From Candidatus Borkfalkia faecavium (GTDB lineage Bacteria > Bacillota > Clostridia > Christensenellales > Borkfalkiaceae), in NCBI GenBank assembly GCA_019114755.1, contig DXEW01000020.1:1-64000 (forward strand): a stretch of 64,000 nucleotides of DNA, in the 5' to 3' direction. A program made the position numbers and the translations under genes. Positions 1 through 58,764 of the stretch are shown here, piece by piece. The first letter of the stretch is position 1. Each line of letters begins with the position of its first letter. The notes under the pieces were generated by a model. It saw only the letters and a program-made list of their open reading frames with translations, was not told the DNA's origin and made no database searches.

Positions 1-2
1 AG

Positions 3-1937: not shown

Positions 1938-1950
1938 AAGGAGGGATGAT

Positions 1951-3297: not shown

Positions 3298-3313
3298 AGG
3301 GAGGATATAAGAT

Positions 3314-3610
3314 ATGAATTTTAACTTACTTACGGAAACCGGACTGGACAGTAACCTTGCCGAGATCGTGGCAAAATTGCAGAGCCTGATGGATAGCTTC
3401 TGGGTGTATATTGTCATTGCACTCGCGGCGGTCGTCGTCATCTGGGGCGCGTACATCGGCATCAAGATCGCCATCGCGCACAGGAACGAAGAAAAGATCA
3501 ACGCCAAAGACATGGTGAAGCAGCTCATCATCGGCATCGTCATCATATTCGTCGTCGCGATGGGTGCACCGCTTCTCATTAACGGTCTGTCCGCTTGGGT
3601 CGGCGCGTAA
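3314..3610 (+). CDS. VirB2/TrbC pilin-like small two-TM protein
   Basis: 98 aa, two hydrophobic segments separated by charged HRNEEKINAKD, immediately before TrbL-like and VirB4 genes. Confidence 0.65.
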   Translation: MNFNLLTETGLDSNLAEIVAKLQSLMDSFWVYIVIALAAVVVIWGAYIGIKIAIAHRNEEKINAKDMVKQLIIGIVIIFVVAMGAPLLINGLSAWVGA

Positions 3611-3628
3611 AAACGGGAGTCTGAACAG

Positions 3629-3658
3629 AAAGGCGGCGTGTTATTTGCCGCCTTTCAT
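3629..3658 (+). terminator. Intercistronic hairpin after the pilin-like gene
   Basis: aaaggcggc-N9-gccgccttt followed by catttt. Confidence 0.6.
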
Positions 3659-3681
3659 TTTCAGATAACGGAGGAGGTTAA

Positions 3682-4899
3682 ATGCTGATATTTTTACAGG
3701 AGATAGGCTTGCAGCTCTTTCTATGGCTGTTGCAGCTTGTGGACGGGCTGATGGACTTATTTTCCGCCATGACGGGCATTGCCACGGTCAACTACCACGG
3801 GCAGCAAGTCAATCTTATCGAGTTTATCGTCGGCGACTCCGCCATCGGCACCGTCTTTTGGTGTATTTTCATCACGGCGGTGGGGCTCACCTGTATCTTT
3901 GCGATCGCGGGGCTCATCAAGAATATGATCTCCGGCAACCGCGGTGTGGCGACGGTCGTGGGGAAGTTCTTTCTCGCACTTTTGGGAACGATGGCAATGC
4001 TGGCGGTCGTGATCCTCGGTATCCTTATCGCCAACGGCTCGCTGCAGCTTCTGGCGCGCATCTTTCAGGTGGAGAACACGACCAAGCTCTCCAACGCCAT
4101 TTTCAATGCCTGCGTCGGTGATTGGCTGAACGGGTATTCGGCGGGGGATGTGGACGTGACGTCTCTCACGGTGCGCGAGATCCTGGGCGGTTACGATACG
4201 GCGCTGTTCGGGATCTGGCCTACGTCCTGGAAGGGGAACGGCATGGTCGACCCGAATACGTTCCTGTATCTTCCCTCGCTCGTAGCGGGCATCGCGCTCT
4301 GCGTGGCGCTCGTGATCGCCGTTCTCAATCTCGCAAAGCGCGTGTACGAGATCGTTTTTGCTTACTTCACGATGCCGATCGCCATGTCAACTTTGCCGCT
4401 CGACGATGGGGCGCGGTTCAAAAACTGGCGGGAACTCTTCGTCTCCAAACTCATCCTCGCCTATGGCGCGGTGTTCGCGGTCAATATCTTTGCGCTCATC
4501 CTGCCGCTCATCAATGTGGTGCATCTGGACGGGGTCAATAGCTTTGGCAACGCCATGTTCACCATCTTCATGATCGTGGGCGGCGCGATGCTCATCCCTG
4601 CGGGGCAGACGTTGTTTGCAAGACTATTCGGGCAGGCGGACGATATGCGTGCCGGTGGCGGGTGGCTGAGAAGCGCGTTCTACGGCGGGCGCATTGCAAG
4701 TGCCATGACGGTAGGACTTGCGGCGAAAGGCATCAAGGCGATCGCTTCCCGCAAGAAGGGCGACAGCGGTAACGGAAACAGCAGCGGCGATTCGGGCGAC
4801 GGTTCGTCCGGCGGAGATGAGAGCGACAAGTACAGCGACGGCGGCGAAAGCGCGAGCGCGCCGGACGGAGGAAGTGAAGAAGGAGGGGAAAGCAGTTGA
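3682..4899 (+). CDS. TrbL/VirB6-like multi-TM conjugal transfer protein
   Basis: 405 aa, multiple TM segments, hydrophilic Ser/Gly/Asp-rich C-terminal tail, position before VirB4. Confidence 0.75.
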   Translation: MLIFLQEIGLQLFLWLLQLVDGLMDLFSAMTGIATVNYHGQQVNLIEFIVGDSAIGTVFWCIFITAVGLTCIFAIAGLIKNMISGNRGVATVVGKFFLALLGTMAMLAVVILGILIANGSLQLLARIFQVENTTKLSNAIFNACVGDWLNGYSAGDVDVTSLTVREILGGYDTALFGIWPTSWKGNGMVDPNTFLYLPSLVAGIALCVALVIAVLNLAKRVYEIVFAYFTMPIAMSTLPLDDGARFKNWRELFVSKLILAYGAVFAVNIFALILPLINVVHLDGVNSFGNAMFTIFMIVGGAMLIPAGQTLFARLFGQADDMRAGGGWLRSAFYGGRIASAMTVGLAAKGIKAIASRKKGDSGNGNSSGDSGDGSSGGDESDKYSDGGESASAPDGGSEEGGESS

Positions 4900-7520
4900 G
4901 GATCATTCCGAAAAAAATTAAAGTGAAGAATACGGTATGGAAGTGCTATTCCATGACGGATGTGATTGTGGCGCTGTTTGTGTTTGCGCTCATCTTCATC
5001 GCAGTCACGGCTGGGAATTGGGCGTTTGCGATCGTTATGGGTTTGATAGCGGTAGTTATGTTCATGCCCACGCCCGACGGTATCTTTTATACCTGTATCT
5101 TTGAAAATGTAAAATTCCTGTTCGCCAAAAAGAGATATACGGCGGACGCGAAAAATCCGAAAGAAAACATAGACACGCTTTTGGGCCTGAAAGAAATCAA
5201 AACAAACGGCTTGCTCGCATACAGCGGCGGAATGTTCGGAAGGGTCATCAAGGTCGGGCAAAAGAACTTCGGTATCGAGGACGTAGTGCAGCAGAATATC
5301 GACATCAATTACATAGCCAACGCCTTAAAACTGCTCGACGCCAATCAGAGCGCGGACATCATCAAGATCGACCGCCCCGTGAATTTAGACGGTTTCTCGG
5401 AAGACCTGTTCGCCCGTCTTTCCGCATTGCGGGAAGAAGAGCCGCAGACGCGGGAGATCCGCCGCGGCATTTTGCAGGAACGCATCGACCGCATCGACAA
5501 GCTCAACAACATCCGCAAGCAGTATCTGTCCGACTATTATATTGTAGTGTATGGCAGGAACGAGCTTGATTTAGAGAGTGCGGCGATCAATATCGCGGGC
5601 GAAGTCGGCAAGAGCGGATTGTCTACAAAACTGTTAGGGCAAAGAGAGGCGGCTGTGTTTCTGAAATACAGTTTTTCTCGCAATTTTGACGAGCGGGAGG
5701 AAAAGGAGATTGCGGATGAGGATTTGCTCGCATGGGTAAAGCCGAAAGAAGTGGTGTTCCACGGTAACAGGTACGTCATTGACGGAACGGAGGCGAGCGT
5801 GCTTGCGGTCGCAGACTATCCTCTGCGCGTCAAAAACGCATGGGGCGCAAAACTGTTCAATATCCCCAACACGAAGATCGTGATGCATGTTCGGCCCGTG
5901 GACAAGTACAAGGCGATCCGCCGAATCGACAAGTGCATCGGCGAGATGGAAACCAAGCAGATCGTGGCGGAAAAAGCGAGCGAGGCGAACAGCGCGGAAA
6001 CACATCAGGAAACCATGAACGCGCTTCTCGATAGTTTGCAGACGGAAAACGAAAGCCTTTTGGACGTTACGCTGACCGTCACCGCCTATAACTATCTCAA
6101 AAACGAGAATTACAAAAAGGCGGTGCGTAGGGCAATGCTTACGGAAAACTTCAAACCGTCCACACTGTACGGCTTGCAGATCGAAGGCTTTAAGACGGCG
6201 GCGGTATCGCCCGTAAGCACGCTCAAAAATCACGAGCGCGGCATCAACAGCTCAAGCCTCGCGGCGGTGTTTCCGTTCGTGCGGACTTGTGTTTTGGACG
6301 AGGGCGGTATTCTTCTCGGCGAAAATAAGACGAACGGCTATCCGTTCATTCTCAATCTCTGGAAGAGGGGGAATCTGTATCAGAACAGCAACGCTATGAT
6401 CATCGGCAAATCGGGCTCGGGGAAGTCGTATTTTCTCAAAACGCTCATCGCGAACGAGTGGGCGAACGGCACGAGAGTGATCGTATTAGACCCCGAAGCC
6501 GAGTATCTGACGCTCACCCGAAACCTTGCAGGCAATATCATTGACGTGGGCAACGCAAAGGAGGGGCGCATCAACCCGTTCCATATCTATAAAATACTCA
6601 CGGAGGACGGCACGCCTGCCGATCCGAAGGTCACGTTCAATACGCACCTGAAAATGTTGGAATCGTTTTTCAAGATCGTACTTGCGGATGCGCCCGTGGA
6701 CGTCATCGAACTCATCAATAACCTTGTGGTGGAAACTTATGAGCGGATGGGTATTACGGAGAATACCGACTGCTCGGCATTCCCTGCGGACTACTTCCCG
6801 TTGTTTTCCGACCTTTTGGAAACATTACAGAGCAAAAATAAGGAAAGTATGGATGAGCTTACCAAGAGGGATATGCGCACGGCGGAACTGTATTTGCAGA
6901 AGTTTGTTTCGGGTAGGTATTCGGACATCTGGAACGCGCCGTCCACGTTAAAGACAGACGCAGACCTCATCGACTTCGATTTTCAAAGCCTGTTTGCGAA
7001 TAAGAACAATACGGTGGCGAATGCGCAGATGCTGCTCATTTTCCGATTCATCGAGCAGGAAGTCATCAACGCGAGAGAGAAGAACAAGGGCGGGGCAAAC
7101 CTTCATACGCTCATCATCGCGGACGAGGCGCATCTCTATATCGACCCGAAGTTTCCCATCGCGCTCGACTTCTTCTATTCGATGTCAAAGCGTATCCGCA
7201 AGTACAACGGCTCGTTCGTTCCCGCCACGCAGAATATCGCCGATTGGAATGCGAACGAAGAACTGCGCGGCAAGACCTCGGCGATCATCAAGAACAGTCA
7301 GTATAGCTTCATTTTCAAACTGTCCGCGCCCGACATGAAGGACGTACTTGACATTTACAAAGCGGGCGACAGCTTCAACGACGAGGAGCAGCGCATGATC
7401 ATCTCGGCGGTGACGGGGCAGACGTTCTTTGTGGGGAGTACGGAGCTTCGCAACTGCATTCTCGTCAAAGCAGGGGATTATACGCAAGGCTTATTTGAAG
7501 AAAAGGAAGGGCATCAATGA
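4896..7520 (+). CDS. VirB4-type conjugative ATPase with N-terminal PrgI-like membrane segment
   Basis: Walker A IIGKSGSGKSYFLK, Walker B LHTLIIADEAHLYID, SMSKRIRKYNGSFVPATQN; TTG start overlaps previous stop; two N-terminal TMs. Confidence 0.9.
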   Translation: MRIIPKKIKVKNTVWKCYSMTDVIVALFVFALIFIAVTAGNWAFAIVMGLIAVVMFMPTPDGIFYTCIFENVKFLFAKKRYTADAKNPKENIDTLLGLKEIKTNGLLAYSGGMFGRVIKVGQKNFGIEDVVQQNIDINYIANALKLLDANQSADIIKIDRPVNLDGFSEDLFARLSALREEEPQTREIRRGILQERIDRIDKLNNIRKQYLSDYYIVVYGRNELDLESAAINIAGEVGKSGLSTKLLGQREAAVFLKYSFSRNFDEREEKEIADEDLLAWVKPKEVVFHGNRYVIDGTEASVLAVADYPLRVKNAWGAKLFNIPNTKIVMHVRPVDKYKAIRRIDKCIGEMETKQIVAEKASEANSAETHQETMNALLDSLQTENESLLDVTLTVTAYNYLKNENYKKAVRRAMLTENFKPSTLYGLQIEGFKTAAVSPVSTLKNHERGINSSSLAAVFPFVRTCVLDEGGILLGENKTNGYPFILNLWKRGNLYQNSNAMIIGKSGSGKSYFLKTLIANEWANGTRVIVLDPEAEYLTLTRNLAGNIIDVGNAKEGRINPFHIYKILTEDGTPADPKVTFNTHLKMLESFFKIVLADAPVDVIELINNLVVETYERMGITENTDCSAFPADYFPLFSDLLETLQSKNKESMDELTKRDMRTAELYLQKFVSGRYSDIWNAPSTLKTDADLIDFDFQSLFANKNNTVANAQMLLIFRFIEQEVINAREKNKGGANLHTLIIADEAHLYIDPKFPIALDFFYSMSKRIRKYNGSFVPATQNIADWNANEELRGKTSAIIKNSQYSFIFKLSAPDMKDVLDIYKAGDSFNDEEQRMIISAVTGQTFFVGSTELRNCILVKAGDYTQGLFEEKEGHQ

Positions 7521-10033
7521 ACAGAGTAAAGAAAAATCGAATTTGCATCATTTTGGCGGCGGTCATGGCGGCGGTGTGCCTCTGCCTCTGTTTGCGGGTG
7601 GATATGACGGCGGCCGCGGCAGCGACGCCGCGCTACACCATGACCTTTTCAGGAACATATAAAAATAATTCCTGGGGAGCGGACGGGCTGACGACAAGCA
7701 TCAGCAACGAGACGAGTTACGGGCTGAAGACGGGGAGTTCGGCGGGCAGAAAGGAATATATGAGCCTGACGCTGGAGGGCAGTTCCACTGCGGGCAGCGC
7801 CACGCTTTCAAACGGCGGGTATGTCACCTCGCCGCGGGTCACGATCACGGCGTCGCTGGAGGCGGACGTATCTCTCTATCGCGGCAGCAGGTTGATCGCG
7901 TCCGGCAATACGTCTGTTTCTGCAGGCGTGTCGGACGGCGAATATCGGGTAGAGGTGTTCAAAGAAAACGGCGGCGGCGCGGGGTACACGCAGTGGGGGT
8001 ATGAGCTGGAACTCTATTCCTATTTTAATATAGATACCACGGCGCCCGTGGGTACGATCGAAAGCGGCGGCAAGGCCGTCTCGTCGGGCGGCAGCGTGAG
8101 CGAAGATTTTTCCTTCCGCGCCGCAGACAGCGGCAGCGGGGTCGCAAAACTGGAATATCGGGAGCCCGGCTCGTCGTCATGGAAGAGCTATACGGCGGGG
8201 AAGGTTATCTCCGCCGCGGGTGAAAGAGGGGAATATACTTTCCGCGCGACCGACCATGCCGGCAATACTTCAGTTAGTTCCGTCACGCTGGAAAACGCGC
8301 ACGCACATCACTACACGGCAAAGGTCATGCCGCCGACCTGTACGACGGGCGGCTATACCCAATACACCTGCACGGAGTGCGGCGACAGTTATACCGGGGA
8401 TCGTACGGCGGCGCTGGGGCATGATTATCTTTCGACGACGAGCGGCGTTTCCTGCACCACGGGCGGGACCATCCGCTTTACCTGTTCCCGCTGCGGGGAT
8501 AGCTATACCGAAGATATCCCCGCAACGGGGCATAGTTATCAGAGCAAGACGGTCTCTCCGACCTGCACATCGGGCGGTTATACCCGCCATACCTGTACCC
8601 GCTGCGGAGACAGCTATACGACCAATCGCACGCAAGCGCTCGGGCATAGCTACACGGTATCGTCCGAGCGCGATCCGACCTGTACAAGCGGGTCGGTGAC
8701 GGTCTATCGCTGTACGCGCTGCGGCAGCACCTACTCGGACGAGGATTCCGACGCTTTGGGTCACAGCTATGACGCGGATGTCATCAACCCCACCTGCACG
8801 GCGGGCGGCTATACGGTGTTCTCGTGCAGGAGATGCAGCTATAGTTATACAGGCAATTCTACGGCAGCCTTGGGGCATAGCTACAAGGCAACGACGACGC
8901 CGTCTTCCTGTTCGACGGATGGATATACCACTTATAAATGCATCCGTTGCGGCGCAAGTTATACCGACAGTCCCACGCAGGCGACAGGGCATAGCTATGT
9001 CGCCGAGATCGTCTCATCCACCTGTACGGAGCGGGGCTATACCGTCTATACTTGCAGCAAGTGCGGCGACAGCTATCGCACCAATGAGACGCAGCCGCTG
9101 GGGCATACCTATGTCATTTCCACGGAAGGGGCGACCTGTACGGAGAGCGGCGTTTCCGTATATACCTGCACCCGCTGCGGGTCGAGCTATGAGGGCGGGC
9201 TGACGGCACCGCTCGGGCATAACTATGTGGCGGAGCAGAGACCCGCAGGATGTACGGTGGAGGGCGGCACCGTCTATACCTGTACGCGATGCGGAGACAG
9301 TTATAACGGAGAGCCGACGCCGCCTCTCGGCCATGCGTATATCTCCAAAGCCGTCGCCGCGACGTGTGCAGAAGGGGGATATGTTCTCCACACTTGCAGC
9401 CGCTGCGGGGACAGCTATCAGGACAATGAGACGCAGCCGCTGGGGCATAATTTCGTGACGGAGGAACGCCCGCCTTCCTGTACAGAAAGCAGCCGCACCG
9501 TCTATATCTGTCAGGTATGCGGCTTTGAAAAGGCGGAAGAGACGGGGACTTACCCGACGGGTCACGACTATGCTTCCAGCGTACTTCATGCCGCGACCTG
9601 TACGCAGGCGGGGGAGCGGAAGTTTGTCTGCGACAAGTGCGGAGAAGAATATATCGAGACTATCCCGGCGACTGGCCACACTTATGCGATCACCGATTCG
9701 ACCACGCAGGACGGCGTGACCATCCGCACCTATACCTGTTCGGTCTGCGGCGATACTTTCGCGCAGGAGCTCGGCGATCAGTACGAGGAAGTGGCGTCTT
9801 ACATCGAATATTTGTTCGAGCAATACCGCCCGTATATGATTTGGGTATTCCTTGCTACGGCGGGCGTGTGGAGCATCGTGATGGGAGTTTGCTTCGCCAT
9901 TGCCCAAAAACATGAGGAGAAGGAGAAAGCCAAGCGCATGATCTTCAACTACCTCATCGGTCTTGTCGTCATCTTCTGTATCCTCGTTGCCGCCCCGCTC
10001 CTCGTTCGCGGCATCGCTGCGCTCGTGACGTAA
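7517..10033 (+). CDS. Secreted protein: Ig-like N-terminal region, 12-13 C-x(9-11)-CxxC-x(n)-GH repeats, C-terminal VirB2-pilin-like two-TM domain
   Basis: Signal sequence; repeats such as TCTSGGYTRHTCTRCGDSYTTNRTQALGHSY; C-terminus AIAQKHEEKEKAKRMIFNYLIGLVVIFCILVAAPLLVRGIAALVT resembles ORF 3314-3610. Confidence 0.8.
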   Translation: MNRVKKNRICIILAAVMAAVCLCLCLRVDMTAAAAATPRYTMTFSGTYKNNSWGADGLTTSISNETSYGLKTGSSAGRKEYMSLTLEGSSTAGSATLSNGGYVTSPRVTITASLEADVSLYRGSRLIASGNTSVSAGVSDGEYRVEVFKENGGGAGYTQWGYELELYSYFNIDTTAPVGTIESGGKAVSSGGSVSEDFSFRAADSGSGVAKLEYREPGSSSWKSYTAGKVISAAGERGEYTFRATDHAGNTSVSSVTLENAHAHHYTAKVMPPTCTTGGYTQYTCTECGDSYTGDRTAALGHDYLSTTSGVSCTTGGTIRFTCSRCGDSYTEDIPATGHSYQSKTVSPTCTSGGYTRHTCTRCGDSYTTNRTQALGHSYTVSSERDPTCTSGSVTVYRCTRCGSTYSDEDSDALGHSYDADVINPTCTAGGYTVFSCRRCSYSYTGNSTAALGHSYKATTTPSSCSTDGYTTYKCIRCGASYTDSPTQATGHSYVAEIVSSTCTERGYTVYTCSKCGDSYRTNETQPLGHTYVISTEGATCTESGVSVYTCTRCGSSYEGGLTAPLGHNYVAEQRPAGCTVEGGTVYTCTRCGDSYNGEPTPPLGHAYISKAVAATCAEGGYVLHTCSRCGDSYQDNETQPLGHNFVTEERPPSCTESSRTVYICQVCGFEKAEETGTYPTGHDYASSVLHAATCTQAGERKFVCDKCGEEYIETIPATGHTYAITDSTTQDGVTIRTYTCSVCGDTFAQELGDQYEEVASYIEYLFEQYRPYMIWVFLATAGVWSIVMGVCFAIAQKHEEKEKAKRMIFNYLIGLVVIFCILVAAPLLVRGIAALVT

Positions 10034-10163
10034 AAAATGCGGAACTTACCTTTGCTATTCAGCCCGTAAAAATTTTTTCGGGAAAATGCTCCGAACCCCT
10101 TGACAAACGGGAGAAAATGTGATATTCGTATTAACACGAAGAAAGAGAAAAGGAGGCGCACTC

Positions 10164-10526
10164 ATGAACGCACAGGAAATCATTGCAAAAGCGGACAGGG
10201 GAGAGGGGCTGACCGAAGAAGAGATCAGAGTCTATCGTGAAGCAGTCAAGCCTGTCAAGCACACCTACGGCAAGTACGGAACGCTCGCCAAGAAGTATCT
10301 GGAAGAGGAGAATGTCGGCAAGTATTGGGCTATTGAAAACCTTCCCGAATACCTGCACGGCATCGACCGTCAGGCAGGCGAGCTGTACGAAACCATGTAC
10401 GCTAAGCTGTCCAATGATGAGAGATATAAACGGACGGGCAACTTTATGGAGGACTACCGCAGACAGACGGAAATTCAAAAGTTGATTGAGGAAGAGATAC
10501 TCATTGAACTTGTTTATGTGGATTGA
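10164..10526 (+). CDS. Hypothetical ICE accessory protein (120 aa)
   Basis: ATG with RBS aggagg; shorter start preferred over ORF-track GTG 10119. Confidence 0.65.
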   Translation: MNAQEIIAKADRGEGLTEEEIRVYREAVKPVKHTYGKYGTLAKKYLEEENVGKYWAIENLPEYLHGIDRQAGELYETMYAKLSNDERYKRTGNFMEDYRRQTEIQKLIEEEILIELVYVD

Positions 10527-10539
10527 CGGGAGGTGTAAC

Positions 10540-10662
10540 ATGAGGACTGTTTTAGGAATCGGAAAGGGGTTGCTGAAAGCGATGTTCATAGGGGTTGTGT
10601 TTATCGGAACCTGCGTCATGAACTTTATCGGCGCGATCATCTGCGCGATAGCGGGAAATTGA
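10540..10662 (+). CDS. Small single-TM protein (40 aa)
   Basis: RBS gggaggt before ATG; MRTVLGIGKGLLKAMFIGVVFIGTCVMNFIGAIICAIAGN; below ORF-track size cutoff. Confidence 0.5.
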   Translation: MRTVLGIGKGLLKAMFIGVVFIGTCVMNFIGAIICAIAGN

Positions 10663-10672
10663 GAGGTGGAGC

Positions 10673-10909
10673 ATGGAACGTAAACCGGATACGCCCGTTC
10701 GCAAGAGTCGCAGGAAGTACGAAGAGCGGAATAAGGACGAGCGGAAAGAAAAGAACAAGGTGTGGGGAACGAGCATCGACCGCCAATACGCGAACGAGAT
10801 AGACGAGTTCCTCGCAAGGCATGACCTTACAAAGGTGGAGCTGATCGTTGCAGGGTACCAAGCCTTGCGGGGTCGCTATGGCCCGGAAGAACAACAGAAT
10901 AAGCAATAA
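10673..10909 (+). CDS. Small basic, possibly DNA-binding accessory protein
   Basis: 78 aa; basic N-terminus; RBS gaggtg. Confidence 0.55.
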   Translation: MERKPDTPVRKSRRKYEERNKDERKEKNKVWGTSIDRQYANEIDEFLARHDLTKVELIVAGYQALRGRYGPEEQQNKQ

Positions 10910-10915
10910 GTTTGA

Positions 10916-10943
10916 GAGCGCAAGGACTACGGCTCTTGCGCTC
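10916..10943. terminator. Hairpin after small ORF operon
   Basis: gagcgcaag-N10-cttgcgctc. Confidence 0.5.
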
Positions 10944-11077
10944 CTGACTTCTTAAAGACAACTGAATATCAATTCCAAACGGCATAAGAAAGAAAATGAA
11001 CATTGGAGAAATGGAGCGCAACGGACTTATGCCGCTGCATTGCATCTTTCGGTGTTTTTAAGCGGGAGAATGAGGGT

Positions 11078-11260
11078 GTGAATAAGAGACATAGAACTAT
11101 CAATTTAGGGAACAAGAATTATATAATTAAAAGTCATTTCGCGGGAGGAAACAAAATTGATGAAGTATTGATGAGGGCGGCTATTTTTGCGGCGCAAGAA
11201 GAAATTCGGATGATGTCAAATCAAGAATCAGGGATATGCGATCAAGGAGGGGATCCTTGA
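11078..11260 (+). CDS. Small protein translationally coupled to recombinase (60 aa)
   Basis: GTG start after gggagaatgagg; stop TGA overlaps recombinase TTG start (TTGA). Confidence 0.5.
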   Translation: MNKRHRTINLGNKNYIIKSHFAGGNKIDEVLMRAAIFAAQEEIRMMSNQESGICDQGGDP

Positions 11261-12879
11261 AAATAAAAAGCAATAATTGCATAGTAGGTATATACGTTAG
11301 GCTGAGCCGAGACGATGAACGTGCGGGTGAGTCGTTATCGATCGAAAATCAAAAGTCTTTACTTGTGCGATACGTCAACGAAAAGGGCTGGATTCTACAT
11401 GATATATATGTAGATGATGGAATTTCAGGCACTACGTTTGAACGCGAAGGTGTGCAAAGGTTACTTGCCGATGCTAAAAGTGGTATCATAAATACGATCT
11501 TAGTCAAAGATATGTCGCGCTTTGGTAGGAATTACATTCAAATCGGGCAGTATATCGACTATGTTTTTCCTATGTATCATATTCGGTTCATTGCTGTCAG
11601 CGATAACATAGATACAGGAAGTGATAACACCGTTGCAATGGACATGATGCCCATTACAAATGTATTTAATGAATGGTATGCCGCTAACACAAGCCGAAAA
11701 GTGCGGCAAATATTTATTGCGAATGCGAAACGCGGCAAAAGCAATATGTCGCATCCGCCGTATGGTTATTTGTTTAGTGATGACGGTTCACGGAAATTTG
11801 TGATCAATACAGAAGTAAGCCCAAATGTTGAGCGCATATTTGAGATGCGAGCCAGCGGGCTGCCTCCGGCGCGGATCGCCGAAAGATTTAACGAAGAACA
11901 TATCACTACGCCGCAGGATTACAAAGCACAAAGATTTGGTAAATATGCAGCCATAAAGACTTACCATCTGTGGACGGATGCTTCTGTAAGAAAAATTCTC
12001 GACAATCCGGCATATATTGGCAATTTAGCTTTACAACGAAGGACATCTGTTTCGTTTAAAAATCATAAGGCTGTATATCGCCCGGAAGAAGAATGGATCG
12101 TTACAGAAAATGCGCATCCTGCTATTATTTCCAAAGAGCTTTGGCGCAGGGTTAAAGAAGTAGAAAAGTCTGTCAGTCAAGGGAAAAAAACTCGAAAAGG
12201 GTATACCCATCCACTTTCAGGTTTTCTGTTTTGCGCTGATTGTGGAGGAAAAATGAAACTGGACTATTATGCTTTAAAGCATAACGGTGAAGTGACCGGT
12301 ATAGTTTATACTTTTAATTGCGGCAATCATAAACGGTTAGGGAAAGCATATTGTTCAAGTCATTATATCAAGGCAAAGGACCTAGAAAAATTTGTGCTCG
12401 ATGATATTAAAGCGATGGCTTCTTGTGTGACTTTGAATGAAGCAGAAGTGCGCAAACAGTATTTAGAACGCAAAACGAAATTGGCGGAAGAAGAGTTGAT
12501 GCATAATCGAAACGAGTTCGATCAAAAGCGCAGGCGTTGTGATAAACTTGACCAGCTAATAGAAACTGCGTTTGAAGAAAAGATCGCCGGGAATATGCCG
12601 GAAGATTTGTGCGTGAAACTTATCGAACGCTATTCAACAGAGCGCCGGCAACTACTCGGCGAGATCGAGGCTATGGATAAGCAGGAAGCTTTAATAGCTA
12701 ATGTTCAAAATGATGCCGACGACTTTATCGCAAGAGTAAAAAAGCATATGTTTGATGTTACGCTTACACGGGCGTTATGCTTTGAGCTTATTGATAAAAT
12801 CGTTATAGGCAGAGCTGTTTCAGGTGAGCCGCAAAATATAGAAATATATTACAAAGTTGACTTGAACTTTATTCAATGA
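11257..12879 (+). CDS. Large serine recombinase (TnpX/TndX-type integrase)
   Basis: VGIYVRLSRDDE...ESLSIENQKSLL, DDGISGTTFEREG, KDMSRFGRNY; recombinase zinc-ribbon FCADCGGKMK; TTG start with aaggagggg RBS. Confidence 0.92.
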   Translation: MKIKSNNCIVGIYVRLSRDDERAGESLSIENQKSLLVRYVNEKGWILHDIYVDDGISGTTFEREGVQRLLADAKSGIINTILVKDMSRFGRNYIQIGQYIDYVFPMYHIRFIAVSDNIDTGSDNTVAMDMMPITNVFNEWYAANTSRKVRQIFIANAKRGKSNMSHPPYGYLFSDDGSRKFVINTEVSPNVERIFEMRASGLPPARIAERFNEEHITTPQDYKAQRFGKYAAIKTYHLWTDASVRKILDNPAYIGNLALQRRTSVSFKNHKAVYRPEEEWIVTENAHPAIISKELWRRVKEVEKSVSQGKKTRKGYTHPLSGFLFCADCGGKMKLDYYALKHNGEVTGIVYTFNCGNHKRLGKAYCSSHYIKAKDLEKFVLDDIKAMASCVTLNEAEVRKQYLERKTKLAEEELMHNRNEFDQKRRRCDKLDQLIETAFEEKIAGNMPEDLCVKLIERYSTERRQLLGEIEAMDKQEALIANVQNDADDFIARVKKHMFDVTLTRALCFELIDKIVIGRAVSGEPQNIEIYYKVDLNFIQ

Positions 12880-13000
12880 GTGCGGGATGAAGGGCTTTGG
12901 CGGTTACAGTCCATTGCCGCCAACAGCCACCGCAAGGGAAAATTTGGAGGAAAAGAAAAGGGCAGAGCAAAAATAGATCGCCGCATTATACTGTAAACGG

Positions 13001-45784: not shown

Positions 45785-45861
45785 GTGTCCGTAGCGCAAT
45801 TGGATAGAGTGACAGCCTCCGACGCTGTAGGTTCCGGGTTCGATTCCCGGCGGGCACACCA
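45785..45861 (+). tRNA. tRNA-Arg(CCG)
   Basis: Acceptor GTGTCCG/CGGGCAC, anticodon loop CTCCGAC, T-loop ggTTCGATTCC, encoded CCA. Confidence 0.93.
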
Positions 45862-47252: not shown

Positions 47253-47972
47253 ATGATCCGCATCGCCATCGTGGAGGACGAAAAGAAGCACGCCGATATC
47301 CTCACGGGCTATTTGGAGCAATTCGGCAGTGCCGAAGGGGAGACGTTCGATGTTTCCCTGTTCAAAGACGCATTTTCTTTTTTGGAAGAATACCGCCCGG
47401 AATACGACGTCATCTTCATGGATATCATGATGCCGGGCATGGACGGCATGCAGGCGGCGGCAAAGCTGCGCCAAAGGGACGGCAACGCCGTCCTCATCTT
47501 CGTCACCAGCATGGCGCAGTTCGCCGTCAAGGGGTACGAAGTCGCCGCCTTCGATTTTATCGTCAAGCCCATGTCGTATTACGATTTCTGCATCAAGATG
47601 CGGCGGGCGGTGTTTTCCGTGCGCAGCCGCGACGACAGGTTCATCGTCGTGCCGGCGGAAGGGGGCGATTTGCGCATCTCCGTGCGCGATCTGCAATACA
47701 TCGAGGTCTCGGGGCATAACTGCCGCTACCACATCGCCCCGCACCGCGTGGCGGAAGGGCGCAACACCATCCGCAATTTGTCGGCACTGCTCGCTCCCTA
47801 CCACTTCATGCGCTGCAACAGCTGCTATCTCGTCAACCCGTCGTGGATCTCGTATGTGGGCGGGTATACCGTGCGGGTGGGGGAGGACGAACTGCAGATC
47901 AGCCACCCGCGCAAGAAGGAGTTCGTGCGCGAATTCAACGAATGGGCCGCGCGCGGCGGCGGGAGGGCGTGA
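47253..47972 (+). CDS. RR-3: LytTR-family response regulator
   Basis: IAIVEDEKKHADIL, VIFMDIMMPGMDG, RCNSCYLVNPSWISYV. Confidence 0.92.
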   Translation: MIRIAIVEDEKKHADILTGYLEQFGSAEGETFDVSLFKDAFSFLEEYRPEYDVIFMDIMMPGMDGMQAAAKLRQRDGNAVLIFVTSMAQFAVKGYEVAAFDFIVKPMSYYDFCIKMRRAVFSVRSRDDRFIVVPAEGGDLRISVRDLQYIEVSGHNCRYHIAPHRVAEGRNTIRNLSALLAPYHFMRCNSCYLVNPSWISYVGGYTVRVGEDELQISHPRKKEFVREFNEWAARGGGRA

Positions 47973-48072
47973 CATGAGCGAGTTTTCTTTGTGCGGGAGG
48001 GCGTGACATGAGCGAATTTTTCTTTTATATTCCGGCGGCGGGAGGGCGTGACATGAGCGAATTTTTCTTTTA
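47961..48072 (+). repeat. Triplicated RBS/start region of HK-3
   Basis: gggagggcgtgacatgagcga[g/a]tttt at 47961, 47995, 48040. Confidence 0.95.
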
Positions 48073-49402
48073 CGTTTCGGGCAGCTGGGTCTTTTTGATC
48101 GTGCTGTGCGCGGGCGAACACCTGATGACGCCGGCGGGGCGCAGGCGGGAAAAGTATGCCCTGCGCTATGCCCTGAGCTTTTTGGCGCAGGCGGCCGTCG
48201 CCGTCCCCGTCACGGGGGTGTATTTCATCGTCGCCTCGGCGGGAGATGTGCTCGCCGCCAACATCGCCGCCGTGGCGGCGTATGTGGCCATGTTCCTCGT
48301 GTCGCTGGCGGGCATGCGGCTGTGCTTTGCCGGGCCCTTCCGCGAGTGCGTGCTCAGCGGCGTGGCGGCATACGCCGCGCAGCATATCGGCTATAACCTG
48401 TTCGGGCTCGTCAATTACAATAACGCGCTGACGGGCGCCTGCTACATGCTGGGGGCGGGCGCGGGGTACGTCCTGACCACGCTGATCCAGCTGGCGGTCT
48501 CTGCCGCCGTGCTCGCCGCCGTCCGCCTGGTGTTCGCGCCGCGCGGCGAGGGGGAGGGCAGCATCCAAAGCGGCAGCGTCACCGTGCTCGCCGTCGTCAC
48601 CCTGCTCATCGTGCTGGTCGCCAACGGCGCGCGCAGCGTCTTTGCGGCGGAAAGCGCTTCCCTCTCCGCCCTGTGCAGCGTGCTGCTCGTCTGCTGTTGC
48701 GTCTTCATCCTCTTCCTGCGCTCGGACATGCTGGAACGGCGGCGGCTGAAGCAGGAGATCGGCGTCATCGAGTCGCTGCGCGCCAAAGAGCTGCGCCATT
48801 ACGAGCAGCTCAAGAGCAATATCGACCTCGTGAACGTCAAGTGTCACGACATCAAGCACTACATCGACCGCGCGGGCGCGGGCGGCGGCATCGACCCCGA
48901 AGAGCTGAAACACCTCGTCAACATTTACGACAGCGAGATGAAGACGGGCAACGAGACGCTGGACATCGTCCTTTCCGAATACCGCATCTACTGCGCCTCG
49001 CACGGCATCCTCTTCACCGCCTTTGCCGACGGCGCCGCCCTGCGCGGGATGGGCGTGGCGGACATCTGTTCGCTGTTCGGCAACATCATGGAAAACGCCG
49101 TCGAGGCGTGCGAGCGCGTGCAGGACCCCGCCCGCCGCGTCATCAGCCTCAACGTGCGCAGCCTGGCGGGGCAGGTGTCCGTGTGCGCCGAAAATTATTT
49201 TGAAGGGGAAGTACGCTTTGCCGACGGCCTTCCCGTCACCCGCAAAGAGGATACCTTCCGCCACGGCTACGGCGTCAAGTCTATCCGCATGATCGCCGAA
49301 AAGTACGGCGGCACCATGCAGTGCGGCGCTGCGGGCGGTCTGTTCAGCGTGCGCGTGCTCTTCCCCGCTCCCGCCGAAAAGAAGGGCGCGGCGCAAGGTT
49401 AG
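48053..49402 (+). CDS. HK-3: GHKL sensor kinase (alternative in-frame start 48008)
   Basis: Multi-TM; NVKCHDIKHYI; LFGNIMENAVEAC; RHGYGVKSIRM. Confidence 0.9.
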   Translation: MSEFFFYVSGSWVFLIVLCAGEHLMTPAGRRREKYALRYALSFLAQAAVAVPVTGVYFIVASAGDVLAANIAAVAAYVAMFLVSLAGMRLCFAGPFRECVLSGVAAYAAQHIGYNLFGLVNYNNALTGACYMLGAGAGYVLTTLIQLAVSAAVLAAVRLVFAPRGEGEGSIQSGSVTVLAVVTLLIVLVANGARSVFAAESASLSALCSVLLVCCCVFILFLRSDMLERRRLKQEIGVIESLRAKELRHYEQLKSNIDLVNVKCHDIKHYIDRAGAGGGIDPEELKHLVNIYDSEMKTGNETLDIVLSEYRIYCASHGILFTAFADGAALRGMGVADICSLFGNIMENAVEACERVQDPARRVISLNVRSLAGQVSVCAENYFEGEVRFADGLPVTRKEDTFRHGYGVKSIRMIAEKYGGTMQCGAAGGLFSVRVLFPAPAEKKGAAQG

Positions 49403-49461
49403 GACAATATTTGCAAGTTTAGGACGGTCCTATTGACGGATCGTCCTTTTTGTTTTATACT
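49393..49461 (+). promoter_or_regulatory. LytTR-like direct repeats (20-bp period) plus promoter for GH3-3
   Basis: gcaaggttaggac at 49393, gcaagtttaggac at 49413; TTGACG-N17-TATACT. Confidence 0.7.
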
Positions 49462-49567
49462 GCGGCCGTCGGAAGGGGAAAGAGATAATTCCCCTTCAAA
49501 AAAATCAGGGCCGAGCCGAAGCAAACGGGCCCTTTCCTTCGGCTCGGCCGATCAAACGGAGGTCAAT

Positions 49568-52500
49568 ATGCAAGGAAAGCTCAAAATGCGCAACGGCAAA
49601 GTGCTCGCCATCTGGATCCCCATCCTGGCGGTGCTGCTCGCTCTGCTGATCGCGCTGAACGTGCTGGCGGGTATTTTCGGCGGCGTGCTGGATACCTCGC
49701 TCGGGCGGGGCGAACGGCACACCATCAAGCCCGAAAACACCGAAACGTGGGACACGGAGTATTACGAGGAGCGCTATGGCACCCTCGAAGAGGCCGTGGC
49801 CGCTTCCCAAAAGGTGATGAAGCAGGTAGACGACGAGGGCACGGTGCTGCTGAAAAACAACGGCGTCCTTCCCCTGAAAGACAAGACGGTGACGCCTTTC
49901 GGCAGAGGATATGCCCATCCCATCTACAACGGCATGCAGGAGGGCGGCTCCATCCTCTATACGGAGCCTGAAAAGGGCGTCAGCCCCGCGGAGGCGCTGG
50001 AAGAGGACGGCTTTACCATCATCAGCGCCGCTGCCGACAAGCAGCCCGCCGATATGGGCCTGACCACGGACGGCGGCTTCGGCGGCTACATCCAGGACGA
50101 CGACGGCTCCTGGATCCAGGTGTTCAAGTATGAAAACTATCCCGACGCGCCGCGGAGCGCCGAGGGGACCAGCCGCCACAACACCATGTCGTTCGGCGGC
50201 GACAACCAGATCCCGGAACTGAAAGCAGACGTCTATAACGACATCCCCGCTTCCGAACTGGAAAAGATGAAGGACTCCGCCGGGCTGGTATTTGTCAGCC
50301 GCAGCGGCAGCGAGAGCCTGGATAAAAAGGCGGACGCCTATGACGACGGTACCCCGCACTTCCTCGCCCTCTCCAAAAACGAAAGGGACATGATCGCCTA
50401 CGCCAAAGAGCACTGCGGCAGCGTCATCCTCATCGTCAACTCCTCCAACCCCGTCGAGCTCGCGCCCGTCATGCAGGGCGAGCTGGAAGTGGACGCCATC
50501 ATCTGGGCGGGGCACCCCGGCGACCAGGGCTTCCGCTCGGTGGCGGACATCCTGGCGGGGGAAGTGAACCCCTCGGGCAGGCTGGTCGATATCTTCGCGA
50601 CCGACTTCACCAAGGCCCCTTCTTACAACAACTGGGGCAAGTTCCGCTACACCAATGCGGACAAATCTCCCTTCGTGGAATACCGCGAGGGCATGTACAA
50701 CGGCTACCGCTATTACGAGACCGCGCACGACATCGGCGCCGCAGGCTTCGTCTACGGCGAGCTGGACGGGCAGGGCGGCGTGGTGACGCCGGGCGAAGTG
50801 GCGTATCCCTTCGGCTACGGCCTCTCCTATACCACCTTCGAGCAGAAGATCTCTTCCTTCACCGCGGGCGACACCTTTACGGTGACGGTAGACGTCACCA
50901 ACACGGGCGACATGGCGGGCAAAGAGGTGGTGCAGCTGTACTACACCCCTCCCTATACCGACGTCGATCAGGATCTGCTGATCGAAAAACCGACCGCGAC
51001 CCTCGTCGCCTTCGGCAAGACGGAGAGCATCGCCCCCGGCGAAACCAAGAGCGTCACTCTCACCTTCGATAAAGACGAGCTCGCTTCCTACTGCTACACC
51101 CGCGACAACGGCGACGGCACCACCGGCTGCTACTTCCTCGAAGAGGGCGAGTACAGCTTCACCCTGCGCGCCAACAGCCACGAGGTCATCGAAGAAAAGA
51201 CGTGGAAAAACGGCAGCGACATCTGGTACGACAACAGCGATCCCCGTCCCTCCGAGATCGAGATGCAGGCGGCGATGGCGGACGACGGCACCCTGCTCCC
51301 GTATCCCGAAAAGCGGGCCGAAGACCCCGACGCAAAGTTCATCGCCGCGACCAACCTCTTCCCGTACATGAGCGAATATATGCAGGAAGAGAGCGTGATG
51401 CTCACCCGTGCAGACTGGAACAAGACCCTTCCTTCCGCCCGTACCCCCGATAAGGATGTGAGCGAAAAGTTCTCGTCCATGTTCAACCTCGAAGACACCT
51501 TCGATTATAAGACGGACGAAAAGCTGGGCAACGTGGAAGGGAGCGCCGTGTACAGCGAGTCGGTCACCGAAAAGGCGGATAAGCTGCTCACCGTGCTCGA
51601 CATGCGCGGCAAAGATTATTACGACGAAGATTGGGAAGCCCTCCTCGACCAGCTCGATTACGACGCCGACGCCGACGATATCAAGCAGATCCTCGTCGCC
51701 GAGTCGTACTTCACCAACGGCGTCGATTCCATCGGTCTGCCGCCCAGCCGCCACTGCGAGGGCGCCAACGGCGTCCGCCTCAACAACGGCAACGACCTGG
51801 CGACCGACGACCGCGAGACCTCCGCATGGTGCATGGCGCCCATGATGGCCTCCACCTGGAACACCGAGCTCATCCGTCAGGCGGGCGAGGCGATGGGGCA
51901 GGAAGGCCTGCTCGGCGGCAGACAGGGCCGCATGGCGCCCGCCTTCAACCTGCACCGCTCGCCCTTCCAGGGCCGCGTGTTCGAGTATTACAGCGAAGAC
52001 CCGCTGCTCTCGGGCAAGATGGCGGTCGCCATGGTCAACGGCACCTCTTCGATGGGCATGTTCGACTACATCAAGCACTTCGGCCTCAACGACCAGGAGA
52101 CCTACCGCGACAAGCGCCTGAAGACGTGGGCGAACGAGCAGGTCATCCGCGAGCTGTACAACAGACCGTTCGAGATCGCCATCCGCGAAGCGCGCAAGAC
52201 CATCAAGTACACGGCAGATCAGGAAGGCACGGTCAAGACCAAGGTGATGCGCGGCGTATCGGCAATGATGGGTGCGCAGAACTGCTTCGGGCCCGTCACC
52301 GCCTTTGCCAACTACGATCTGATGACAAAACTGGTGCGCGAAGAGTGGAACTTCAACGGCGTCATCATCACCGATATGTTCAGCGGCAGCGAGTCGTTTA
52401 TCGAGCTCACCATCCGCGCCGGCACGGATACCTGGCTGGTGTGGCAGGATACCAACCCCGCCGTGCATACCGATACGGCCACGGGCAAGTCGCTCGCGCG

Positions 52501-52732
52501 CACCGCGCTGCACCGCCTGTCGTATACCATCGCCAACTCTTCCGTGCTGCAAGACAGCCCTCCGGGAACGATCATCTACTATGATATGTCTCCCTGGCGC
52601 GTGGGCCTGTTGGTCGGTACCATCGTCGGCGGCGTCGCCATCGGCGCGGCGGCATTGTGGCTGGTGATCCGCACCGTGCACAGCATCCGTCACCCCGAAC
52701 AGTACCGCACGAAGCAGAAGAAGGAAAACTAA
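49568..52732 (+). CDS. GH3-3: membrane-anchored permuted GH3 glycosidase
   Basis: N- and C-terminal TMs; VDDEGTVLLKNNGVLPL, FGYGLSYTTFEQ, HFGLNDQETYR, NFNGVIITDMF. Confidence 0.88.
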   Translation: MQGKLKMRNGKVLAIWIPILAVLLALLIALNVLAGIFGGVLDTSLGRGERHTIKPENTETWDTEYYEERYGTLEEAVAASQKVMKQVDDEGTVLLKNNGVLPLKDKTVTPFGRGYAHPIYNGMQEGGSILYTEPEKGVSPAEALEEDGFTIISAAADKQPADMGLTTDGGFGGYIQDDDGSWIQVFKYENYPDAPRSAEGTSRHNTMSFGGDNQIPELKADVYNDIPASELEKMKDSAGLVFVSRSGSESLDKKADAYDDGTPHFLALSKNERDMIAYAKEHCGSVILIVNSSNPVELAPVMQGELEVDAIIWAGHPGDQGFRSVADILAGEVNPSGRLVDIFATDFTKAPSYNNWGKFRYTNADKSPFVEYREGMYNGYRYYETAHDIGAAGFVYGELDGQGGVVTPGEVAYPFGYGLSYTTFEQKISSFTAGDTFTVTVDVTNTGDMAGKEVVQLYYTPPYTDVDQDLLIEKPTATLVAFGKTESIAPGETKSVTLTFDKDELASYCYTRDNGDGTTGCYFLEEGEYSFTLRANSHEVIEEKTWKNGSDIWYDNSDPRPSEIEMQAAMADDGTLLPYPEKRAEDPDAKFIAATNLFPYMSEYMQEESVMLTRADWNKTLPSARTPDKDVSEKFSSMFNLEDTFDYKTDEKLGNVEGSAVYSESVTEKADKLLTVLDMRGKDYYDEDWEALLDQLDYDADADDIKQILVAESYFTNGVDSIGLPPSRHCEGANGVRLNNGNDLATDDRETSAWCMAPMMASTWNTELIRQAGEAMGQEGLLGGRQGRMAPAFNLHRSPFQGRVFEYYSEDPLLSGKMAVAMVNGTSSMGMFDYIKHFGLNDQETYRDKRLKTWANEQVIRELYNRPFEIAIREARKTIKYTADQEGTVKTKVMRGVSAMMGAQNCFGPVTAFANYDLMTKLVREEWNFNGVIITDMFSGSESFIELTIRAGTDTWLVWQDTNPAVHTDTATGKSLARTALHRLSYTIANSSVLQDSPPGTIIYYDMSPWRVGLLVGTIVGGVAIGAAALWLVIRTVHSIRHPEQYRTKQKKEN

Positions 52733-55869: not shown

Positions 55870-55957
55870 TGGCGGAAGGTGAGGGATTCGAACCCCCGGA
55901 GGCTTTCACCTCTTCAGTTTTCAAGACTGACGCCATCGACCACTCTGCCAACCTTCC
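55870..55957 (-). tRNA. tRNA-Ser(TGA)
   Basis: Minus strand GGAAGGT...loop CTTGAAA...variable arm...ACCTTCCGCCA. Confidence 0.92.
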
Positions 55958-56040: not shown

Positions 56041-56240
56041 CGGGCGGCAATGTGACGGAAGGGGCGGCGGAAGGAAGGGGCGGCAATGTGACGGAAGGGG
56101 GCGGAAGGAAGAGACGGCGGGTAAAACGGGAGGGCGGCGGAAGAAAGGGGCGGCAATGCGGCAGAAGGGGCGGAAGGAAGAGACGGCGGGTAAAACGGGA
56201 GGGCGGCGGAAGGAAGGGCGGCGGGTGAAACGGCGAGGGG
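56041..56240. repeat. GGCGGAAGG-rich minisatellite with 69-bp period
   Basis: cggaaggaagagacggcgggtaaaacgggagggcggcgga at 56102 and 56171. Confidence 0.9.
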
Positions 56241-56462: not shown

Positions 56463-57182
56463 ATGAAGAACATCGCCGTCATCGAAGATCAGGAGGGGGC
56501 AGCCTCCAAGCTCATATCCTACATCGAGCGCTTTTCGGCGCAGACGGAACAGAAATTCAACGTCGTGCGCTTCCGCACGGGCACGGAATTTTTAGAAGAT
56601 TACCGCGCCGTGTACGCCGTCGCTTTCATGGACATCCAGATGCCCGGCATCAACGGCATGGATACCGCCATGGAGCTGCGCCGCCTCGACAAGACCGTCT
56701 CCATCATCTTCATCACCAACCTCGTCCAGTACGCGCAGAAGGGCTACGAGGTAGACGCCGTCGGCTTCCTCGTCAAGCCCGTCAACTATTACGACTTTTC
56801 GATGAAGTTCCAAAAGGCGCTCGACATCTATGTGATGAACGAAGACCGCGCCATCACCTTAGACCTTCCAGGCGGCATGTGCCGCATCTCCACCGACAAG
56901 CTCATGTTCGTGGAGATCATCAGCCACCGCCTGTATTACCACCTCGTCGACGACGTCATCGAGATGACGGGCGTGCTTTCCAATGTAGAAAAACAGCTGG
57001 CGGAGTACGGCTTTCTGCGCTGCAACAAGTGCTACCTCGTCAACCCCAAGTTCATCGTCAGCGTCAAAAACAACAACGTGCAGGTGGGCAACCACACCCT
57101 GCAGATCAGCCGCCCCCGCAGGGCGGCGTTCATGGCAGAACTTGCCAACTGGTTCGCGGGCAGCGGCGGGGGAAGAGCGTGA
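56463..57182 (+). CDS. RR-4: LytTR-family response regulator
   Basis: IAVIEDQEGAASKL, AFMDIQMPGING, RCNKCYLVNPKFIVSV. Confidence 0.92.
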   Translation: MKNIAVIEDQEGAASKLISYIERFSAQTEQKFNVVRFRTGTEFLEDYRAVYAVAFMDIQMPGINGMDTAMELRRLDKTVSIIFITNLVQYAQKGYEVDAVGFLVKPVNYYDFSMKFQKALDIYVMNEDRAITLDLPGGMCRISTDKLMFVEIISHRLYYHLVDDVIEMTGVLSNVEKQLAEYGFLRCNKCYLVNPKFIVSVKNNNVQVGNHTLQISRPRRAAFMAELANWFAGSGGGRA

Positions 57183-58558
57183 TGGACATGCCCGATATCC
57201 TCTCCCTCTATGTGCGGGTCATCCTCGAATTTATTTTGGAAATGACGGTGTTCTGCGCCCTCACTTCCTGCCGCCTGCAGCGGGCGCGGTACTTTGCCCT
57301 GCGCGTCGTCTGCGGCATGGCAGGCATGGCGGCGGCGGGCTTTGGCATCAGCTTTTTCTATGCCGCCTTCGGCGCCACCGTCTGGGGCAGGATCGCCGTA
57401 TATATCGTGCTCTTCCTCTTATTTACGGGATATATGCGCCTCTGCTTTGACGAGCCGTACAAGATCGTGCTGTTTTGCTGCAGTTACGCCTATGCGGCGC
57501 AGAACCTGGTATACAAGCTGTTCCTCTTCTTTTGGAGCATCGGCGAAGAGTTCCGCCTCTACGACGGCTGGGGAAATCATTTCGAGCTCTTCTACCGCCT
57601 CTTCTATTATCTCTTCTTCGCGGCGGCCGCGGCGGCGGCGTACTTTTTGTTCATCCGCCCGCTCACCCGCCGCCTTTCGGAACGGCAGCTGAATTTCCGC
57701 ACCTTCATCATCTCCGTCATCGTGCTCGGCATCACCGTCATCCTCTGTTCGATAGACGACATCTTTTTTGCCAAACTCAGCGACTACCGCGAGAACCGCT
57801 ACGAAAATTTTGACTACTTCGTACTCAGCCAGACGGGCCACGCCTTCTCCGTCGTCTGCTGCGCCCTGGTGATGATGCTCATCTCCCGCACGGTGGAGCG
57901 GCGCGAATTGCAGGAAGAGCTCTCGTACCTGCAATACGAGATGCGCCAGCGCGAACAGCAGTACGAGATCTCGAAAGACACCATCGACCTCATCAACGTC
58001 AAGTGTCACGATATCAAATATAAGCTCGGCTCGCTGCTGGCGGGGCAGGGGCAGGGGAGCGAAAACGCCGTCAGCGACCTGTACGAGAGCATCTCCATCT
58101 ACGACACCAAGGTCTCCACCGGCAACGACTTATTAGACGTGCTGCTCACCGAAAAGAGCCTCTACTGCGAACAGCACGGCATCACCTTTTCCTGCCTGGC
58201 GCAGGGCGAAAAGCTCGCCTTTATGGACCGCGGCGACCTCTTCTGCCTGTTCGGCAACATCATCGACAACGCCCTCGAAGCCGTCCGCGGCCTGCCCGAG
58301 CGGGAAAAGCGGGTCATCAACCTCTCCGTCAAGAGCAAAAACGACCTGCTCATCGTGCAGGAAGAAAACTACTTCGGCGGGCAGCTCTCCTTCAAAGACG
58401 GCCTGCCCGTCACCACCAAGGAAGACAAAAACTACCACGGCTTCGGCACCCGCTCCATCCGCATGATTGCCCGCAAGTACGGGGGAGAACTGACCACGGG
58501 CGTTTCCGGCGACGTGTTCCACCTCAACATCATCTTCAGCATGGGCGAGGCAAGGTGA
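57182..58558 (+). CDS. HK-4: GHKL sensor kinase
   Basis: Multi-TM; LINVKCHDIKYKL; LFGNIIDNALEAV; YHGFGTRSIRM; overlaps RR-4 stop. Confidence 0.92.
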   Translation: MDMPDILSLYVRVILEFILEMTVFCALTSCRLQRARYFALRVVCGMAGMAAAGFGISFFYAAFGATVWGRIAVYIVLFLLFTGYMRLCFDEPYKIVLFCCSYAYAAQNLVYKLFLFFWSIGEEFRLYDGWGNHFELFYRLFYYLFFAAAAAAAYFLFIRPLTRRLSERQLNFRTFIISVIVLGITVILCSIDDIFFAKLSDYRENRYENFDYFVLSQTGHAFSVVCCALVMMLISRTVERRELQEELSYLQYEMRQREQQYEISKDTIDLINVKCHDIKYKLGSLLAGQGQGSENAVSDLYESISIYDTKVSTGNDLLDVLLTEKSLYCEQHGITFSCLAQGEKLAFMDRGDLFCLFGNIIDNALEAVRGLPEREKRVINLSVKSKNDLLIVQEENYFGGQLSFKDGLPVTTKEDKNYHGFGTRSIRMIARKYGGELTTGVSGDVFHLNIIFSMGEAR

Positions 58559-58764
58559 GCGGCCTTTGCAGGGGCCGTTCCTGCTCCCGGCGGAGAGCTG
58601 CCTCTTCCCGCTCTCTTTCTGCCGCTCTGGCTCGGCCGACGGTGCCGATGCGGCCAACGCGGAAAAATGCAGAAAACCGCCTCGGAATTTGCAGAACAAG
58701 TAAAAAAAACGACAGTTTAAGCAGCGCCCGCCTACAGCGCGCGTTTTTCTGTTATACTGGAGCC

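Follow-up and report, generated by a model that had tools for sequence, protein, structure and literature searches.

The junction between the sensor kinase gene HK-3 and the glycoside hydrolase gene GH3-3, at positions 49393-49461 of the window (the whole stretch of 64,000 nucleotides that was analyzed), is likely to be a LytTR operator of the response regulator RR-3 that feeds a terminator-embedded GH3-3 promoter, and would be the place where two transcription units meet. All three genes lie on the forward strand. RR-3 (47253-47972), the predicted reader of the operator, consists of a receiver and a LytTR domain, both above the Pfam cut-off (Response_reg, E 3e-18; LytTR, E 2e-8), and its phospho-acceptor D57 is invariant in the alignment. 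HK-3 (48008-49402) has a GHKL ATPase domain (HATPase_c_5). The predicted target, GH3-3 (49568-52732), is a family 3 glycoside hydrolase with an N-terminal hydrophobic segment and Glyco_hydro_3, Glyco_hydro_3_C and Fn3-like domains.

The nearest full-length structure to RR-3 was ComE (4cbv). A PDB search with the LytTR stretch of RR-3 alone returned a chance match only; a family profile search of the PDB found AgrA and ComE. The start of the HK-3 gene carries a tandem repeat (ggagggcgtgacATGAGCGA..., about 34 bp, two to three copies, 47959-48060), so that several start codons are possible for HK-3.

The RR-3, HK-3 and GH3-3 genes make up a single cassette, which belongs to a large paralogous family. 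Of the 12 LytTR proteins encoded in the assembly, four map to the window, and relatives from the same family and order have up to about 27 similar response regulators (RRs), usually followed by a histidine kinase (HK) gene and then often by a GH3 gene. Two GH3-3 relatives with named records come from metagenome assemblies of uncultured Firmicutes/Clostridia, in one case from water deer colon. When the junction was used as a DNA query against relatives, the main match was the GH3 start of one related genome, and a homology search alone would therefore miss a conserved architecture. Using the RR-HK gene order as an anchor overcame this limit. About 200 RR-HK loci were compared, 160 fetched at the outset and 39 new ones added later as a check; the comparisons covered 150 regions downstream of HK genes, 159 regions upstream of RR genes, and 36 RR clusters.

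The initial annotation had described a 20-bp-spaced direct repeat abutting a promoter, and this description held. The repeats gcaaggttaggac (49393-49405) and gcaagtttaggac (49413-49425) are identical at 12/13 positions, differing in one base, and have a period of 20. The first repeat includes the HK-3 stop codon TAG (49400-49402), and the GH3-3 promoter follows with the -35 hexamer TTGACG (49433-49438), a spacer of 17 and the -10 hexamer TATACT (49456-49461). Five sigma-70-like sites including this one were found in 4.5 kb, where shuffled sequences give 1.4. In the register defined by the -35-anchored comparison across cassettes, half-site 1 is CAAGGTTAG (49394-49402, overlapping the HK-3 stop codon) and half-site 2 is CAAGTTTAG (49414-49422, 20 bp after half-site 1), with 11 bp between them and exactly 10 bp from half-site 2 to the -35. 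The LytTR half-site consensus is [TA][AC][CA]GTTN[AG][TG]. Half-site 2 matches it at 8/9 positions and half-site 1 at 7/9, with GGT in place of the core GTT.

By itself, the repeat counts for little: direct repeats with at least 12/13 identity at periods 13-40 number 54 in the window. It is set apart from chance by where it lies and by the fact that independent cassettes have repeats of the same period and register. When 250 bp around the HK stop were scanned for direct repeats of at least 10/12 at periods 13-39, the 150 HK-downstream regions gave 16 repeats at period 20 and 15 at period 21, with 0-8 at other periods. Upstream of the RR genes (159 regions), the counts were 14 at each of periods 20 and 21, and 0-6 at others. 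HK and RR coding stretches, scanned as a control, gave no peak at 20/21. The peak remained after de-replication to one locus per RR cluster, at both 65% and 50% RR identity, and the period-20 peak appeared again in the 39 fresh loci, most of which are close relatives of known ones. The initial annotation had made its proposal depend on conservation of the repeats in orthologous loci, and repeats of 20-21 bp in fixed register were indeed found in many RR-HK cassettes.

Identity between 9-mers, anchored on the -35, peaked at offset -18/-19 with period 20 (4.1-4.3/9, mean 2.4), with period 21 next, and the match to the LytTR consensus was 6.2/9 at offset -19 vs 3.5-4.9 at other offsets. Inspection of aligned cassettes by eye showed the same order in many of the 36 RR clusters: a 9-mer, 11-12 bp, a second 9-mer, 10 bp, and the -35. 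The words themselves differ between cassettes. The word at the HK flank recurred before the RR gene of the same cassette in 19/149 cases at p<0.05 (7.5 expected) and in 7 at p<0.01; control spacings gave 4-5 and 0-1, respectively.

This layout agrees with what has been published for the class. The 9-bp direct repeats of LytTR systems are usually 12 bp apart, in some cases 11 or 13 bp, and strongly favor a position 10 bp upstream of the -35 (PMC6193735). The suggestion of the initial annotation that the pair is of the LytTR type is supported by half-sites 11 bp apart, the second ending 10 bp before the -35, next to a regulator of receiver and LytTR domain composition. By its sequence layout, the putative RR-3 operator is a member of the known LytTR direct-repeat class, and it shares paired 9-bp direct repeats, a LytTR regulator and the 10-bp distance to the -35 with AgrA P2/P3, the HdrR/BrsR LRS operons and ComE. 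It differs from these systems in that the target is a glycoside hydrolase gene beside its own RR-HK pair, and in that half-site 2 merges into the stem of a terminator. Promoters activated by AgrA have over-long -35/-10 spacers of 18 and 20 (PMC4227749); the spacer of the GH3-3 promoter is 17, and the promoter itself therefore does not imply strict dependence on RR-3. In the Firmicutes polysaccharide utilization locus Ros-7 of Roseburia, an HK and an RR with a LytTR domain likewise lie beside glycoside hydrolases (PMC5320581), but loci of that type comprise several genes and include transporters, whereas the cassettes described here are minimal RR-HK-GH units present in many copies per genome.

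If each regulator reads its own site, residues of the RR and bases of the half-site should covary. A search of about 230 RR columns against 10 half-site positions returned RR residue 218 and half-site base 2 (position -18) as the top pair: His goes with A in 34/36 half-sites and Arg with C in 79/98. In a cluster-level permutation, this pair reached p 5e-5 with clusters at 65% identity and p 0.0012 at 50%. Judged as the highest-ranking pair of the search, it had a search-wide p of 0.005 with the 65% clusters and was not significant with the 50% clusters (p 0.15-0.39). LytTR columns as a set covaried with the site more than receiver columns did (p 0.0005). A hold-out made up mostly of RR-flank sites was noisy (His to A, 16/20; Arg to C, 17/32). 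For the fresh loci, the prediction for residue 218 was recorded beforehand; Arg went with C in 20/24 half-sites and His with A in 2/2, a result that is supportive but not decisive because it includes a single His-type regulator and mostly close relatives. The covariation is what would be expected of regulators that read their own sites, and RR-3 fits the pattern, with His218 and an A at base 2 of both half-sites. Structural modeling places residue 218 at what would be the opening of a C-terminal helix after the last strand, in the same region as AgrA R233; the two are likened by region, not as equivalent residues. DNA binding by AgrA requires R233, which lies in the C-terminal loop; the alanine mutant does not bind (PMC4227749).

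A second junction in the window, on the same strand at 58691-58758 between HK-4 (57182-58558) and a GH16 gene, has half-sites GCAGAACAA (58691) and ACAGTTTAA (58712), a hairpin at about 58723-58745 and a -10 TATACT at 58753. Its regulator, RR-4 (56463-57182), has Arg218, and the half-sites have C at base 2. Only 6 bp separate the end of the predicted -10 from the first ATG (58765), which makes either the start or the promoter there doubtful. Upstream of RR-4, a G-rich tandem array with units of about 35 and 69 bp occupies 56042-56239.

A close enzyme relative offers a further comparison. In one related genome (G028:C8, loci L069/L217), the GH3 protein is 91% identical to GH3-3 (87.5% at the DNA level), with similarity starting 10 bp before the start codon; the adjacent RR shares only 36% identity with RR-3, and the adjacent HK only 40% with HK-3. 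The junction keeps the design, with a half-site ACCATTCAG, 10 bp, TTTACA in a hairpin loop, a T-tract and TATACT. The regulator there has Arg218, and base 2 of the half-site is C. On this comparison, the predicted operator goes with the regulator and not with the enzyme, and the break in similarity may reflect either a regulator swap or a transfer of the enzyme gene.

The neighboring regulator very probably docks at the 13-base word. TTAGGAC occurs only twice in the window, both times in the repeats, and TTAGGAC-N13-TTAGGAC without mismatch occurs only at this junction in the assembly (89.9% complete), where an exact-word search found no second mismatch-free copy of the repeat word. Near matches to the RR-3 word (AAGTTTAGGAC or AGGGC, 20 bp apart) were seen in six loci of other genera (L131, L135, L140, L147, L156 and L187). 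The region upstream of RR-3, inspected for signs of autoregulation, contained no matching repeat, and the word therefore has no confirmation from elsewhere in its own cassette. It could be argued that the site, though of the LytTR type, serves another one or several of the roughly 12 LytTR regulators of this genome, as their number and the resemblance between several cassette words would allow. We consider such cross-regulation unlikely, because the word is found once in the assembly, within the RR-3 cassette, because RR-3 has the residue expected for A at base 2, and because among cassettes the RR residue agrees with the cassette's own word.

The initial annotation had made no mention of a terminator that overlaps both repeat 2 and the -35. 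The hairpin AGGACGGTCC-TATTGAC-GGATCGTCCT (49421-49447, forward strand; 10 bp stem, 7 nt loop) is the best intrinsic terminator of the region, with folding z-scores of -3.8 to -5.2, and is directly followed by the T-tract TTTTGTTTT (49448-49456). Its 5' arm begins inside half-site 2, its loop holds the TTGAC of the -35, and its 3' arm together with the T-tract makes up the -35/-10 spacer, with TATACT beginning at the last T. As in ordinary tandem operons, where a terminator is followed by a promoter, a G+C-rich stem-loop and a T-tract lie downstream of the HK-3 stop; unlike in such operons, the promoter is not a separate element. We infer that 49421-49456 would end the RR-3/HK-3 transcript.

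The strength of this hairpin and the abundance of comparable repeats in the window (54, see above) might suggest that the junction is a terminator only, and the repeat a by-product of the stem combined with chance. However, no part of repeat 1 falls within the stem, cassettes with unrelated words and cassettes that lack a hairpin have repeats of the same period and register, and RR residue and base covary; together, these observations make this reading improbable. Also improbable, and somewhat more so, is that the inverted repeat is an operator or another DNA element for a protein instead of a terminator. Repressors classically bind inverted repeats at the -35, but the listed cases have a T-run after the stem, and pairing is preserved as the sequence of the stem varies, so that an RNA hairpin fits better than a sequence-specific site. 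In one RR clade, picked by RR similarity and promoter call and not by the hairpin, we counted 31 double changes in the stem vs 14.8 in shuffled data, a difference that relatedness can inflate. Pairing in this clade was 75% at the expected center vs 43-57% when slid by 1-3 columns.

Embedded promoters, defined as a hairpin containing the -35 with the -10 after its T-run, were found in 40/150 HK-downstream regions, 3/159 RR-upstream regions and 0-2/150 shuffled regions. A separate scan of all fetched DNA (about 1.5 Mb, both strands) gave 40 such elements downstream of HK genes vs 18 elsewhere. The embedded form is distributed over about eight RR clusters at 50% identity, with two of them (c08 and c09) holding most cases, and about three quarters of the cassettes have no embedded terminator by the rule used.

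The overlap of terminator and promoter may have no function of its own and simply reflect compaction of a short intergenic space. We give this an even chance; it bears on nothing but the overlap, and the operator reading could hold alongside it. Overlap was present in 37/64 cassettes with less than 80 bp between stop codon and -35 and in 2/26 above that distance, and a separate upstream terminator was found in 22/51 non-overlapping cassettes. Nothing decisive speaks against compaction. The -35 recurs in or beside the hairpin loop, not anywhere in the stem, and compaction alone would not require this, but the fixed half-site register might impose that position. Phrase searches of the literature, a weak test, returned nothing relevant on terminator/promoter overlap in bacteria and no named precedent for a -35 inside a terminator. 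A shallow keyword search of open-access text likewise found no prior description of a fused operator, terminator and promoter or of its repetition in a large cassette family.

Beyond the junction, two strong hairpins (z -4.0) lie in the GH3-3 leader (49465-49567), immediately ahead of the ribosome-binding site; the longer one is absent from the related GH3 at L069. Positions 1-13000, upstream of the GH3-1/RR-1 region, contain conjugation genes (a coupling protein, a TraG-like ATPase, a T4SS pilin-like protein) and a probable recombinase (11236-12879), which suggests an integrated mobile element. The window also encodes tRNA-Arg(ccg) (45785-45861) and tRNA-Ser(tga) (55870-55957); the edge word of the latter, ggcggaaggtgaggg, recurs in scattered copies at about 55550 and 55720.

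In the reading that we favor, an RR-3 operator feeding a terminator-embedded promoter, HK-3 would phosphorylate RR-3, whose LytTR dimer would bind CAAGGTTAG and CAAGTTTAG, 20 bp apart, and switch on GH3-3 by activating the sigma-70-type promoter 10 bp downstream. LytTR biology supplies the model for each step between phosphorylation and activation, and we further infer that RR-3 is the cognate regulator, that it binds here and that it activates rather than represses. The RR-3/HK-3 transcript would stop at the terminator starting inside half-site 2. With the -35 in the loop and the spacer built from 3' arm and T-tract, read-through from the RR-HK pair into the GH3 gene would be cut off, leaving GH3-3 on its own RR-gated promoter and insulated from its neighbors. 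Polymerase recycling after intrinsic termination has been documented in vitro (PMC6978380). It is conceivable, though a long shot, that the fusion is functional in this sense, the polymerase that ends the RR-HK transcript keeping sigma and re-initiating at the GH3 promoter when the LytTR regulator is bound. If so, expression of the sensor pair would feed polymerase directly to the target gene, and a natural element built for polymerase recycling would be new.

Since the same layout is present in dozens of sister cassettes, regulators and docking sites can be compared pair by pair. Every cassette couples one LytTR regulator to an operator of its own whose position is known, and with many such pairs per genome throughout a bacterial family, the cassettes form a natural data set for the rules of DNA recognition by LytTR domains, a class that includes regulators of virulence and competence. 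The data set already points to one candidate contact, between residue 218 and half-site base 2. With its compact design, the terminator-embedded promoter would permit a sensor operon and its target to be either strictly insulated from each other or coupled. Finally, for uncultured gut bacteria, the cassette layout offers predictions of the sensor to which a given glycoside hydrolase responds.
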